From positions 1-64,000 of the forward strand of contig NZ_JABLSI010000014.1 in the NCBI RefSeq assembly GCF_019303475.1: DNA of 64,000 bases, in the 5' to 3' direction. Below are positions 47,986 through 52,456 of the stretch, one piece after another. Within the stretch, counting starts at the first letter, position 1, and each line of letters begins with the position of its first letter. The notes beneath the pieces are model-generated. The model made no database searches, was not told where the DNA came from, and saw only the letters and a list, made by a program, of their open reading frames with translations. A program made the position numbers and the translations under genes. This DNA comes from Streptomyces sp. JJ38 (GTDB lineage: Bacteria > Actinomycetota > Actinomycetes > Streptomycetales > Streptomycetaceae).

Positions 47986-49404
47986 CTACCAGGGAAGTGC
48001 GCGGATCTGTTCGACGCACAGGACGACGAACAGCGCGGCGGCCAGGACGAGCATGGTGTTGCTGAGCGGGCCGCTGCGCCAGGGCGCGGGCATGTCGCGC
48101 CGGTTGAGCAGCACGAGCAGCGTCCCGGCCAGGAACGGCAGGAACAGCGCCCCGAGGACGCCGTACCCGATCACGAGGGCGAAGGGGCGGTCGAGGAAGA
48201 GCAGCACGATCGGCGGGAACGTGAGCCAGAGCAGGTAGAAGCGGAAGGCGGGCGAGCGTTCCCGGGCCCCGGAGGCCACCGCGCGGGCACCGCCCACGTC
48301 ACCGGCCGCGCCACGGCCCGCGCGACCGCCCGCCCACCGTCCCGCAGCGCCACCCAGGTGGGCGGTGTAGTCGGAGAACAGCAGGCTCACGCCGTGCCAG
48401 ACGCCGACGAGCGAGGAGAACGAGGTCGCGAAGAAGCCGACGAGGAACAGGTCGGCGGTGAACGGGTCGAAGCGCCGCTCGAGTTCGGTGCCGACGTCCA
48501 GCAGGCCCCTGCTGCCGTCCAGCGTGGCCTGGGTGGCCTGCAGCAGCTCGGCGCCGACAATGATCATGGCGATGGTGAAGACGGCCGTGGTGACGTAGGC
48601 CGTCGCGTTGTCCAGCCGCATCATCCGCATCCAGCCCGGGGTGTCCCAGCCCTTGGCGTTCACCCAGTAGCCGTAGGCGGCCATCGTGATGGTGCCGCCC
48701 ACGCCCCCGACGACGCCGAGCGTGTAGACGACGGAGCCGTCGGGAATGGAGGGCCACAGCCCGGCGAACGCCGCGCCCGCGTCGGGCACGACCCGGACGG
48801 CCAGCACCACCACGACGACGAACATGGTGCCGATGAGCACCGTCATGACGCGCTCGACGACCCGGTACCGGTTGAACCACACGAAGACGAGGCCGAGGAG
48901 AGCCGTCCCGACTCCCCACACCTTGAAGTCCACGGTGTCGGGGAAGAGCGCCGCCAGGGGCAGGGCGGCGGCGGACATCGCCGTCGCCCCGTAGACGAAG
49001 CCCCACAGCAGGGCGTAGCCGCCGAAGTAGTAGAGCGTCCAGGAGCCGAGGGAGCGCCAGCCGTCGAAGAGCGTGCGGCCGGTGGCCAGGTGCCAGCGGG
49101 CCGCGCCCTCGGCGAAGGCGATGCGGATGGCGCAGCCGACGACGACGGCCCACAGCAGCGTGTACCCGAAGCGGCTGCCGGCGACGAGCGTGGCGACGAG
49201 GTCCCCGGCCCCGATCCCGGTGGCGGCGACGACGAGGCCGGGGCCGACGGACCGCCAGCGGACCCGGCCCTCCGCCTCGTCCGACGCGGGGCCGGAACCG
49301 GGGCTTGACGCGGCGCCGGAACCGGGGCCTGACGCGGGGCCGGAACCGGGGCTTGACGCGGGGCCGGGGCCGGGGCCGTCAGCCGAAGCTGGGTGGGTGG
49401 ACAC
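47986..49404 (-). CDS. Nramp-family divalent metal transporter
   Basis: The 472-residue NRAMP-like membrane protein has about 11 helices. The first has the form GPGLVVAATGIGAGDLVATLVAG, where Nramp proteins carry DPGN; here the motif is GIGAGD, as in the divergent subgroup, so manganese or iron transport is uncertain. TITMAAYGYWVNAKGW resembles the MPHN region. Residues 10-45 are an SPGSGPAS-type repeat from four 24-bp DNA repeats. GTG at 49404 has GGAGA upstream and lies inside the end of the previous gene (26-base overlap). Confidence 0.88.
   Translation of the reverse strand: MSTHPASADGPGPGPASSPGSGPASGPGSGAASSPGSGPASDEAEGRVRWRSVGPGLVVAATGIGAGDLVATLVAGSRFGYTLLWAVVVGCAIRIAFAEGAARWHLATGRTLFDGWRSLGSWTLYYFGGYALLWGFVYGATAMSAAALPLAALFPDTVDFKVWGVGTALLGLVFVWFNRYRVVERVMTVLIGTMFVVVVVLAVRVVPDAGAAFAGLWPSIPDGSVVYTLGVVGGVGGTITMAAYGYWVNAKGWDTPGWMRMMRLDNATAYVTTAVFTIAMIIVGAELLQATQATLDGSRGLLDVGTELERRFDPFTADLFLVGFFATSFSSLVGVWHGVSLLFSDYTAHLGGAAGRWAGGRAGRGAAGDVGGARAVASGARERSPAFRFYLLWLTFPPIVLLFLDRPFALVIGYGVLGALFLPFLAGTLLVLLNRRDMPAPWRSGPLSNTMLVLAAALFVVLCVEQIRALPW
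49283..49378. repeat. Four tandem 24-bp repeats inside the transporter gene
   Basis: Units at 49283, 49307, 49331 and 49355 begin GACGCGG and share GCCGGAACCGGGGC, with the last one diverged. They encode an eight-residue Ser/Pro/Gly/Ala repeat near the N terminus of the Nramp-like protein. Confidence 0.85.
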
Positions 49405-50365
49405 GGAAGGTCTCCATCGCGAAACGGTGTACCCACGCGATCTCGGTGCTCTCGCCGACGGGCCCGGAGGTGACGAGGCTGTAGGGCGCGCCGTTGTCGG
49501 CGGTGAAGCGCTCGTCGAAGCTGATCCGGGGGCCGAACTCGTCGTGCTCGTACCGGTAGGCGTGCAGCACGCTGTCGGCACGGCTGGGCGTCACGAGCCC
49601 GGACTCATCCCGCTCGTAGCCCTCGAACCGCTCGGCGATGGCGCGGGCCTCGTCCATCGACTCCTGCGGCGAGTCCCACCCCAGGGTGAACACCTGGATG
49701 CGACTGCGCTCACCGGGGGTGCCGATGAAGGTGCTGAACCCGTCCCGCCGCAGCTGCCACGTCTCGGGGGCGGCCACGTCGAAGCGGACGTCGCGGAACC
49801 ACTCCCAGCCCTCCGGAAGCGGGGCCGAGGCCCCGGAGGGCGGCGGCGAGGACGTGGGCGGAGTCGTCGAAGGGGCGGGGTCGGACGGGTTGGAGGGGGA
49901 GGGGGAAGTCGTGGACGGGCGCGGGGGCCGGGCGTCGTCCCGCTCGTCCTCCTCGCTCCCGGTGGCCCGCGCGAGCCACACGGCCCCGCCGACGGCGAGC
50001 AGCACGGCGAGGACGATGACCCCGGCCACGACCGGTGCCCGCCGCCCCCGTGCGGGCCGCGCGCCGACAGGCTCGGGCTCACCGAGCTCGACCGACGGGC
50101 CGACCGGCGGCGGCTGCGCCGACGGCCCGGCGGGTGGCTCGACCGGATGCTCGCCCCGGCCCGCGGGCGTCTCGGCGGGCTGTTCCGGCGCCGCGGGCTC
50201 CGCGGAGCGGCCGGGCGGGCGCGACGGCGGCGCCGCGGGCCGCGCGGGTGGCACGGACGGCATCGGCGGCGGCTGCCCACCGGAGAACCGGGGTTCGGCC
50301 CCTGGCCGGGGCTCGGGCCCGGGCTCGGTGACCCAGGTTCCGCGTTCCTCGTCCCAGTACGCCAC
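49379..50365 (-). CDS. Proline-rich single-pass membrane protein
   Basis: The 328-residue protein starts MAYWDEERGTWV, followed by a proline-rich cytoplasmic region (about 15-105). One membrane helix lies at about 110-130 (APVVAGVIVLAVLLAVGGAVWLA in blocks), then a Ser/Thr/Pro linker and an outside globular domain (about 180-328: GWEWFRDVRFDVAAPETWQLRRDGFS in blocks, FRVHPPSFG at the end). The outer domain has no family I can name. GTG at 50365 lies ten bases after the small motif-bearing protein gene, so it belongs to that operon. Confidence 0.8.
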   Translation of the reverse strand: MAYWDEERGTWVTEPGPEPRPGAEPRFSGGQPPPMPSVPPARPAAPPSRPPGRSAEPAAPEQPAETPAGRGEHPVEPPAGPSAQPPPVGPSVELGEPEPVGARPARGRRAPVVAGVIVLAVLLAVGGAVWLARATGSEEDERDDARPPRPSTTSPSPSNPSDPAPSTTPPTSSPPPSGASAPLPEGWEWFRDVRFDVAAPETWQLRRDGFSTFIGTPGERSRIQVFTLGWDSPQESMDEARAIAERFEGYERDESGLVTPSRADSVLHAYRYEHDEFGPRISFDERFTADNGAPYSLVTSGPVGESTEIAWVHRFAMETFRVHPPSFG

Positions 50366-50375
50366 GGCTGCCCGC

Positions 50376-50810
50376 TCAGCCGAGCAGGGCCTGGACGGCC
50401 TGGACGACGGGGGCCGCGGCGGCGAGGGCGGCCACAGCGCTGCCGCCGGAACGCAGCAGCTCGCGGAGGCGGCCGAGCCGTTCGCGTTCGGCCTGGCCGG
50501 TGCGCTCCAGCTCCGCGAGGCTCTCCCCCACCTCGGCCACGCCCTCGGCCTCGGGGGCGAGCATGGGCAGGTCCCGGCGCAGGTCGTGGACGGCGGCCAG
50601 GAGTTCGGGGCTCGCGGTGAGAACCTGCTGACCCGCCTGGTTCTGGGCGTGCTCGCCGGAGGAGACGACGGCTCCCGGCGAGTCGTTGACGGCCTGGGCG
50701 CCGTCTCCGGCGGCGACGGCGCCGCCGCTCATGTTCCCGACGTAGACGCCCCCGGAGACCCGGACGTTCCGCGGCTCCGGTGTCGGCTCCCGCTCGGCTT
50801 CCCCGTTCAT
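50376..50810 (-). CDS. Small helical protein with glycine-rich motif, DUF5955-like
   Basis: The 144-residue protein has residues 20-39 reading GGVYVGNMSGG then AVAAGDGAQ, a likely beta-arch motif shared with the preceding gene (15 of 20 identical). A weaker second copy PGAVVSSGEHAQNQ follows. The rest is helical (LLAAVHDLRRDLPML, ESLAELERTGQAERERLGRLRELL) and ends in a hydrophobic helix (AVAALAAAAPVVQAVQALLG). The layout recalls actinobacterial DUF5955 proteins, but this is from memory. ATG at 50810 overlaps the previous stop as ATGA. A self-assembly or partner-binding role is inferred. Confidence 0.8.
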   Translation of the reverse strand: MNGEAEREPTPEPRNVRVSGGVYVGNMSGGAVAAGDGAQAVNDSPGAVVSSGEHAQNQAGQQVLTASPELLAAVHDLRRDLPMLAPEAEGVAEVGESLAELERTGQAERERLGRLRELLRSGGSAVAALAAAAPVVQAVQALLG

Positions 50811-52456
50811 GCGCTGCTCTCCCGTGCCGCTGGTTCGGTGGACTTCTGCGTGAGGGTGGACTTGGTGGCGCGGGCCTTGGCACCCGTGCCCGAGGCGACG
50901 GCGCCGCCGCTCATCTCCCCGATGTAGACGCCGCCCTGGGAGACCTGGACGATCTGCTGCTGGAACTCGTCCGTCTGGAAGCCGGAGGCGCGCAGGGCGT
51001 CCCGGACCCCGCTGGCGATCCGGTCCTGCACGGTCTTGATGTAGCGGCTGACGTCCATCTCCTGGAAGAGGGAGAGCTTCGGGGTACTGCCGAGCTCGCG
51101 GATGGACGTCTTCGGGCCGTCGGAGACGGACAGGTGCGGCTTGCGCATCCACAGCCGGAACGCGCTCGCGAGCGCGGAGCCGAGGGTGCGCAGGCTCTCG
51201 TAGAGGGCGGTCGGGGTGTCCCCCAGGGCCCGTACGGCGGACCGGCGGTTGTCGTTGCGCGCCGGGTCGGCCAGTTCGTCGATGCGCGTGAAGGACCTGC
51301 GCACCGGGGTCAGCACGTGCGGGACGACCTCCAGCACCAGCATCCCGCCCTGGGTGTGGACGCGGACGAGGACGGAGACGACGACCTGCTCGTGCCAGGC
51401 GCCGATGCGCACGCGGAGGAAGTACCTGCGGCCCTCGCCGCCCTCGTCGACGGCGACGTCGAGGTGTTCGCGGATGTGCTCGGCCTGCCGGGAGACCGCC
51501 GGGCGGGCGACGCCGCCGGGCAGGTAGACGAACTCCTCGATCTCCAGTGAGCGCATCCGGTCCATGCTGTGCCGGGCGCCGGCGGCGTCCCGCAGGGCGG
51601 TCAGCCGCGGGGTGATGAGGTCGACGACCTGGCGTGGGGTGAGCGGCTCCTTGGACGTGCTGCCGGGCTGCCGCTTGAGCTCCAGGGCGAGGGACCACGG
51701 GTTGTGCGGGAGCCCGGCGCCGAGGAACGGTTCGAAGGGGTCGTAGACGGTCAGCGGTGAGTGCTGTTCCTCGGTGATGGCCGCCTCGATACGCCGGTAC
51801 CGGTCGCTCGCCGGGAGCCGGGGCGGCGGCGCGGTGCGGAACCCCTCGCCGGTCAGCTCGCGGCGCAGGAGCGACATGAGGTCGACCTGCTGGGCCCACA
51901 GCGGCAGGGCCAGGGCGAAGGGCAACAGCAGGCCGGCCCAGGCCGTCGGGTCCCCGGTGACCGCGGCCAGGAACACCGTGACGACGTACAGGGCCATCAA
52001 CAGCCAGCCGAGCAGGCGCCCGACCCGCGCCTTGGACGTCTGCGGCTGCCGGGTGAGGAGCAACAGCAGACCGATCAGGGCGAAGAACAGCGGCCAGACG
52101 GTGAAGAAACCCAGCGGTGAGGCCCCGAGGTCGGCCACGGTGCCGGAGGCGGTGCGGCCGAGGCCGATCGTCAGGGCGAGGAACAGGGCCCAGACGACGA
52201 GCACCCCGACGGCCTTGCCGATCTCCTGGGACCGGGCGCGCAGGGCGTGGTGGAGCACCGAGACGACGTCCACGCCGAGTGAGGGCGGCACGGGGCGGTC
52301 CTCGTGGGCGACGAGCTCGTCGATCACCTTGGTGCGGAACGCGTGGTCGAGGTACACGCCGCCGGAGAGCAGCCGGGTGGCTTCGGTGTGGACGTGGCGA
52401 CGTGGGGTGTCGGCGGGCTGGGCGCCGTCACCGGTGTCCTGGGCAGGAATCGTCAT
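50807..52456 (-). CDS. Four-helix membrane protein with C-terminal GGVYIG motif
   Basis: The 549-residue protein has a cytoplasmic start (1-80) and four membrane helices at about 82-100, 117-134, 148-167 and 173-189. A large cytoplasmic part follows (200-500: WSLALELKRQPGSTSKEPLTP, LRVRIGAWHEQVVVSVLVRVHT). At 508-527 a glycine-rich motif GGVYIGEMSGG is nearly the same as in the next gene's product. The membrane portion resembles the group called TRADD-N-associated membrane proteins in conflict-system surveys, but I cannot confirm this. ATG at 52456 lies within an inverted repeat (52452-52497), suggesting operator control. It is the first gene of a four-gene operon. Confidence 0.8.
   Translation of the reverse strand: MTIPAQDTGDGAQPADTPRRHVHTEATRLLSGGVYLDHAFRTKVIDELVAHEDRPVPPSLGVDVVSVLHHALRARSQEIGKAVGVLVVWALFLALTIGLGRTASGTVADLGASPLGFFTVWPLFFALIGLLLLLTRQPQTSKARVGRLLGWLLMALYVVTVFLAAVTGDPTAWAGLLLPFALALPLWAQQVDLMSLLRRELTGEGFRTAPPPRLPASDRYRRIEAAITEEQHSPLTVYDPFEPFLGAGLPHNPWSLALELKRQPGSTSKEPLTPRQVVDLITPRLTALRDAAGARHSMDRMRSLEIEEFVYLPGGVARPAVSRQAEHIREHLDVAVDEGGEGRRYFLRVRIGAWHEQVVVSVLVRVHTQGGMLVLEVVPHVLTPVRRSFTRIDELADPARNDNRRSAVRALGDTPTALYESLRTLGSALASAFRLWMRKPHLSVSDGPKTSIRELGSTPKLSLFQEMDVSRYIKTVQDRIASGVRDALRASGFQTDEFQQQIVQVSQGGVYIGEMSGGAVASGTGAKARATKSTLTQKSTEPAARESSA

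Follow-up and report, generated by a model that had tools for sequence, protein, structure and literature searches.

Matched, locus-specific motifs join a family of membrane receptors to exchangeable effector domains in Streptomyces and other Actinomycetes: a candidate amyloid-type signalling system

What connects a four-helix membrane protein of Streptomyces with the small protein encoded directly behind it? Our computational analysis shows that a membrane receptor is linked to effector domains, which can be exchanged, by matched motifs that co-evolve and are specific to each locus, and it suggests that the motif is a private connector through which the receptor signals to the effector. The starting point was a stretch of 64,000 nucleotides from Streptomyces sp. 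JJ38 (the window), in which an earlier note had pointed out the gene pair as a candidate for amyloid signalling. We consider it likely that the pair forms, usually together with a third membrane gene, a two-component signalling cassette in which the receptor-tail motif assembles and activates the effector carrying the cognate motif in an amyloid-like manner.

The genes of the cassette lie on the minus strand of the window. The receptor gene (50807..52456) encodes a predicted membrane protein of 549 residues with four predicted transmembrane helices (residues ~77-190, 51887..52228; from hydropathy and AlphaFold2), a conserved cytosolic domain (residues ~218-506, 50939..51805; pLDDT ~90) and, towards its C-terminus, the motif GGVYIGEMSGGAVASGTGAK (residues 508-527, 50876..50935). 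The start of the partner gene (50376..50810; 144 residues, the effector side) overlaps the receptor stop as ATGA, and its product carries the motif GGVYVGNMSGGAVAAGDGAQ (residues 20-39, 50694..50753), identical to that of the receptor at 15 of 20 positions, a weaker second copy, SPGAVVSSGEHAQNQ (residues 44-58, 50637..50681), and a DUF5955-like helical domain (residues 68-143, 50382..50609) recognized from a sub-threshold Pfam match, AlphaFold2 and hydropathy. Gene overlap, shared motif and second copy are as the earlier note had described them, and the hydrophobic helix it had placed at the end of the small protein is borne out by a 19-residue Kyte-Doolittle mean of 1.88. Its four-helix membrane protein also holds up, with three helices passing a strict hydropathy cut and with an AlphaFold2 model (pLDDT 86, pTM 0.85) that sets four long hydrophobic helices (64-103, 121-134, 141-166 and 170-200) ahead of the cytosolic domain. 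A third gene (49379..50365), which the earlier note had overlooked, begins 10 bases past the small gene, and a three-gene operon is therefore likely; its product has an N-terminal YWDEERGTWV motif, a Pro-rich region, one transmembrane helix and an extracytoplasmic domain, and matches TIGR03931 (T7SS Rv3446c) weakly. Tandem Pro/Ala-rich repeats (GPGSGPAS-like in frame) are found at 49300-49400, near the N-terminus of a long Nramp-like ORF (47986-49581) whose start codon is uncertain. No obvious defence island was seen around the cassette.

How specific is the likeness between the two proteins? Searched against its own 5.9 Mb genome, the small protein has a sole other match at E < 0.001, the tail of the adjacent receptor (E 6e-4), followed by matches at E 0.003 and 1.5, and the local alignment of the pair scores 88, against 45 for the 99.5th percentile of shuffled sequences. 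The match is thus not a matter of chance. The earlier note had named a widespread linker unrelated to pairing as a finding that would refute its reading; the genome search finds it to be no general linker in the genome of the window. Chance or a general linker is likewise excluded by the genome search, the shuffles and the motif-less paralogs of the receptor, which have no matching partner, the comparison of their tails with the next ORF giving scores of 14-21 and no match. One might still see in the likeness a by-product of local duplication, gene conversion or a common low-complexity linker, with no functional pairing behind it, and identical motif residues do share the same codon slightly more often than codon usage would lead one to expect (62% vs 56%). 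However, this is close enough to expectation to indicate that the likeness mostly does not come from recent DNA copying, and recent duplication or gene conversion was rejected on this ground; moreover, the pairs remain matched across deep divergence, and the motif occurs nowhere in the window's genome but in the pair. With the paralog scores, the codon sharing and the swap tests described below, this explanation is already largely refuted, and we give it next to no credence.

For a broader view, receptors were located by profile HMM, and the downstream ORF was chosen from its position and GC3 without regard to the motif. Among 185 distinct loci, defined by receptor bodies less than 90% identical, the receptor tail matches the N-terminus of the next gene in 158 (above the 99.5th percentile of shuffles); the 27 loci without a scoring match are in part explained by partners that were not identified. 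An ATGA-type overlap is found at the partner start in 78 of the loci, and many related partners have two clear tandem copies of the motif. The motifs are rich in G (21%), S (10%) and N (7%), with little L, R and P. Between many loci they are too different to be aligned, yet they are alike within each locus, as in GDDNRVYANNNRGTMYAHN / GDDNRVYANDNRGTLYAHN (L228), NNSFVHGDNNTTNSGTQ / NNSFVTGNNNTTNSGTQ (L149) and NNGVINTGEMSNVQNQPGALGS / NSGIQNSGSMQNVQNQPGAFNS (L176). For 24 receptors less than 45% identical, the mean cognate score is 71 vs 29 for non-cognate combinations, and the own neighbour is the best match for 18 of them (75%; chance 4%).

Co-variation of the two motifs, which the earlier note had named as a check on its proposal, persists after control for phylogeny. 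When partners were exchanged within disjoint nearest-neighbour receptor pairs, the match fell in 56 of 65 cases and rose in 8 for receptors 45-60% identical, and fell in 46 and rose in 11 for those 60-75% identical; at 75-95% identity the swap was neutral (12 vs 15) and not a positive result, since the motifs have barely diverged there. In partial Mantel tests, the motif distances of the two sides remain correlated both in the close family, with receptor-body and partner helix distance held constant (r 0.37, n 90, p 0.0002), and in the broad set, with receptor-body distance held constant (r 0.23, n 100, p 0.0002). Together with the swap tests, this excludes shared ancestry of the whole locus as the sole cause of matching. 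Concerted change can be followed directly in a syntenic relative (L035), where the GGVYIG..MSGGAVA of the window has become GMFIG..MSGGTAQ in the receptor and GGMYIG.MSGGTAQ in the partner.

The receptor matched no family model in Pfam or NCBIfam. Its relatives are encoded in 390 stretches of a species-level genome collection, mainly from Streptomyces and other Actinomycetes; the 80 loci retrieved are mostly from Streptomyces, with others from Kitasatospora, Actinacidiphila, Embleya, Nocardiopsis and one record named Streptosporangium. The neighbourhood search across Actinobacteria that the earlier note had called for thus finds the gene pair recurring across Actinomycetes. When the class was sampled evenly, a match was present in 24 of 198 genomes, belonging to 9 of 90 genera, and a matched pair (L212) is present in one genome from another class of the same phylum. 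Within the order the count is 116 of 119, a figure that overstates the paired system because it includes the motif-less core paralog. This paralog is widespread in Streptomyces (G000:C118 = L137, L186; L156, L177, L178, L180, L214-L216), and most copies end in a conserved KADxYDA-type C-terminus. In one locus (L145, G051:C1), an apparent frameshift interrupts the receptor gene ahead of the tail with the motif; a match on contig C74 (L033) proved not to be a motif protein and was discarded. Plasmid copies in RefSeq are annotated as hypothetical protein or not at all, one of them with the matching motifs GGVQSGSIAGGHTVAQTNQT / GGTQHGPIAGGYHVQQTNQT. On a Streptomyces plasmid, the cassette (L257:445-2378) adjoins an AAA ATPase and an ATP-dependent endonuclease, possibly a defence neighbourhood. 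No relative was found in viral contigs by tblastn with one TIR-type receptor as query, a search that reaches close relatives only, nor was any found in phage records.

In most loci, the second domain of the partner is helical. Among 47 diverse partners, 13 match DUF5955, 7 a CAP12/Pycsar-type TIR domain (CAP12-PCTIR_TIR), 3 PNP_UDP_1 and one EAD1; that TIR, PNP_UDP and EAD1 can take the place of the partner domain supports an effector role. In the receptor tree, the receptors with TIR partners form one clade (support 1.00) and those with PNP partners a separate one, which also contains one receptor for which no partner was called. The partner in the window matches DUF5955 (PF19380) with 19.9 bits and E 0.001, under the cut-off of 27.1 bits; the best match among the other partners (E 3.9e-11) lies in the C-terminal helical domain, the part in which many partners resemble this family. 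Unlike these partners, core DUF5955 proteins carry no motif in the Streptomyces genomes that were checked. Such true DUF5955 proteins, stand-alone and motif-less, occur once in nearly every Streptomyces genome checked (G000:C63:125308-125565 = L131; L115-L130), and together with the motif-less receptor they could represent an ancestral or separate pair. The effector of the window is a small helical protein which, with its hydrophobic last helix, possibly acts on the membrane.

Could the cassette instead serve the cell envelope? The receptor, the small protein and the third membrane protein would then form a house-keeping sensor complex in which the motif would serve as a tag for assembly and which would have no immune or cell-death role. 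The third gene, with its single transmembrane helix and extracytoplasmic domain, does come next in many loci: in 57 of 90 loci its N-terminal W motif is found downstream of the partner, tblastn finds relatives of it in 10 of 80 loci, and a plasmid carries a copy. At L256:5627-6553, the third gene has the W-rich N-terminal motif RWNDETQRWE in place of YWDEERGTWV, followed by a Pro-rich stretch, one transmembrane helix and an extracytoplasmic domain. The wide distribution of the motif-less core paralog in Streptomyces would also suit envelope maintenance. However, effectors that are exchanged for CAP12-type TIR, PNP_UDP and EAD1 domains do not, nor do the similarity matches of the TIR partners to the PADLOC candidate-defence family PDC-S35 and of the PNP partners to a CBASS effector model. 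With copies on plasmids, and with just one of the 80 loci having flanks in common with the window, we regard a house-keeping complex as quite improbable.

What do predicted structures add to the signalling cassette we favour? In the AlphaFold2 models the motif is of low confidence on both sides, at residues 511-536 of the receptor and in the partner, whose C-terminal part forms a helical bundle with a hydrophobic last helix; compared with known structures, this bundle gave common four-helix matches only. For the receptor, a Foldseek search found no match in the PDB with E <= 0.001. Sequence searches of the PDB gave no relative at a useful E-value. The cytosolic domain repeatedly aligns to helix-grip (PR-10/START) folds at a borderline VIA Z of 6-8.4 (at best Z 8.4 over 122 residues, rmsd 3.6), so that lipid or ligand binding is a tentative lead.

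A working model can be drawn by analogy with amyloid signalling in fungi and bacteria (PMC7889193, PMC9815663). A four-helix receptor with a cytosolic domain bears at its C-terminus a motif of 20-30 residues, rich in G, S and N and disordered in the monomer model, and the effector encoded by the next gene carries the cognate copy at its N-terminus. A signal sensed at the membrane would cluster the receptor tails, and the clustered tails may then assemble into an amyloid-like beta structure. On this structure the similar sequence of the effector would nucleate, so that the effector would assemble and become activated. By diversifying its motif as a private address, each locus would limit cross-talk between cassettes.

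A composition rich in G, S and N and poor in L, R and P, together with the like-with-like rule, fits amyloid-like assembly, and fixed beta-solenoid docking would fit most of the data too. In that alternative, the cognate motifs are a defined non-amyloid beta-solenoid or beta-roll module of stacked G-x-x-A-x-G turns, which builds a fixed hetero-oligomer without templating. The short repeating Gly/Ala turns and the two tandem copies in many partners can be cited in its favour, and specificity and co-variation would look identical. However, the motifs are single short segments of low confidence, and their huge variation, combined with likeness within each pair, is more readily explained by like-with-like stacking than by a fixed interface. 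TIR and PNP effectors, which are exchanged here, moreover occur in assembly-driven systems. We therefore hold fixed docking to be unlikely, if a serious contender, and amyloid-like assembly to be the better account.

How does the system relate to known ones? To our knowledge, bacterial amyloid signalling known so far uses NLR receptors. Amyloid signalling pairs of this kind, termed BASS, were reportedly described by Dyrka and colleagues in 2020. They consist of an NLR and a BELL, TIR or CHAT effector (PMC7889193), and they share with the present pairs adjacent or overlapping genes, a short motif present in both receptor and effector, and numerous motif families unrelated to one another. TIR and small helical proteins that contain a hydrophobic helix are among the effectors of both, and both occur in multicellular actinobacteria. 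In contrast, the receptor here is a four-helix membrane protein lacking an NLR/STAND domain (by Pfam, neither it nor its relatives contain NACHT or NB-ARC); the motif, located at the receptor N-terminus and the effector C-terminus in BASS, has the reverse arrangement in all paired loci; and PNP_UDP and EAD1 effectors as well as a conserved third membrane gene are found in the present system. A short motif thought to work by like-with-like assembly is also the common ground with RHIM, PP and BASS3, but the RHIM core tetrad [IV]Q[IVLC]G is present in 0 of 181 receptor tails, and the PP pattern NxGxQxGxN in none. Of the BASS/RHIM-like assignment in the earlier note, the matched motif as a link between a membrane receptor and a separate effector therefore stands, whereas membership in these groups does not, given the missing NLR, the reversed polarity and the absent tetrad.

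Among fungal NLR amyloid motifs, PUASM is associated with PNP_UDP effectors, and the GDQN motif reads NxxxGxQYxxxGxGDQNxVS (PMC9815663, PMC12261475). The PNP_UDP effector recurs here, and one motif class (GIGDHNTIT / AIGDHNTVT) resembles GxGDQNxVS, for which we claim no homology; the fungal receptors, however, are NLRs with the usual motif polarity. EAD-coupled conflict systems and the two-gene EACC1 system (Kaur et al., 2020; PMC7159879) likewise couple the core component to its effector through like domains, are actinobacterial, in one case with a membrane component, and EAD1 is present in one of our partners. The coupling domain there is a folded, mostly helical EAD, though, and the EACC1 protein has a single transmembrane helix, as opposed to four here, and is paired with a caspase, a family absent from the partners we scanned. 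Our searches, which covered open-access papers, turned up no description of the pair, and the large receptor-effector system around it is apparently undescribed, though priority is not proven.

Thus, a membrane receptor family without a database model appears to use the logic of amyloid signalling with reversed polarity. On balance, we incline to see in it a second class of amyloid-type signalling in bacteria, one that does without NLRs: a large family of membrane receptors in which a private self-assembly motif, diversifying rapidly, couples each member to an effector of its own (TIR, nucleoside phosphorylase, EAD1 or a helical protein). Its many natural matched pairs are a data set on the long-standing question of how the specificity of amyloid-type assembly is encoded in sequence. 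Effectors of the system are shared with anti-phage systems (CAP12/Pycsar TIR, PNP), and the proposed class, if true, would give Streptomyces a further candidate system for immunity or cell death.
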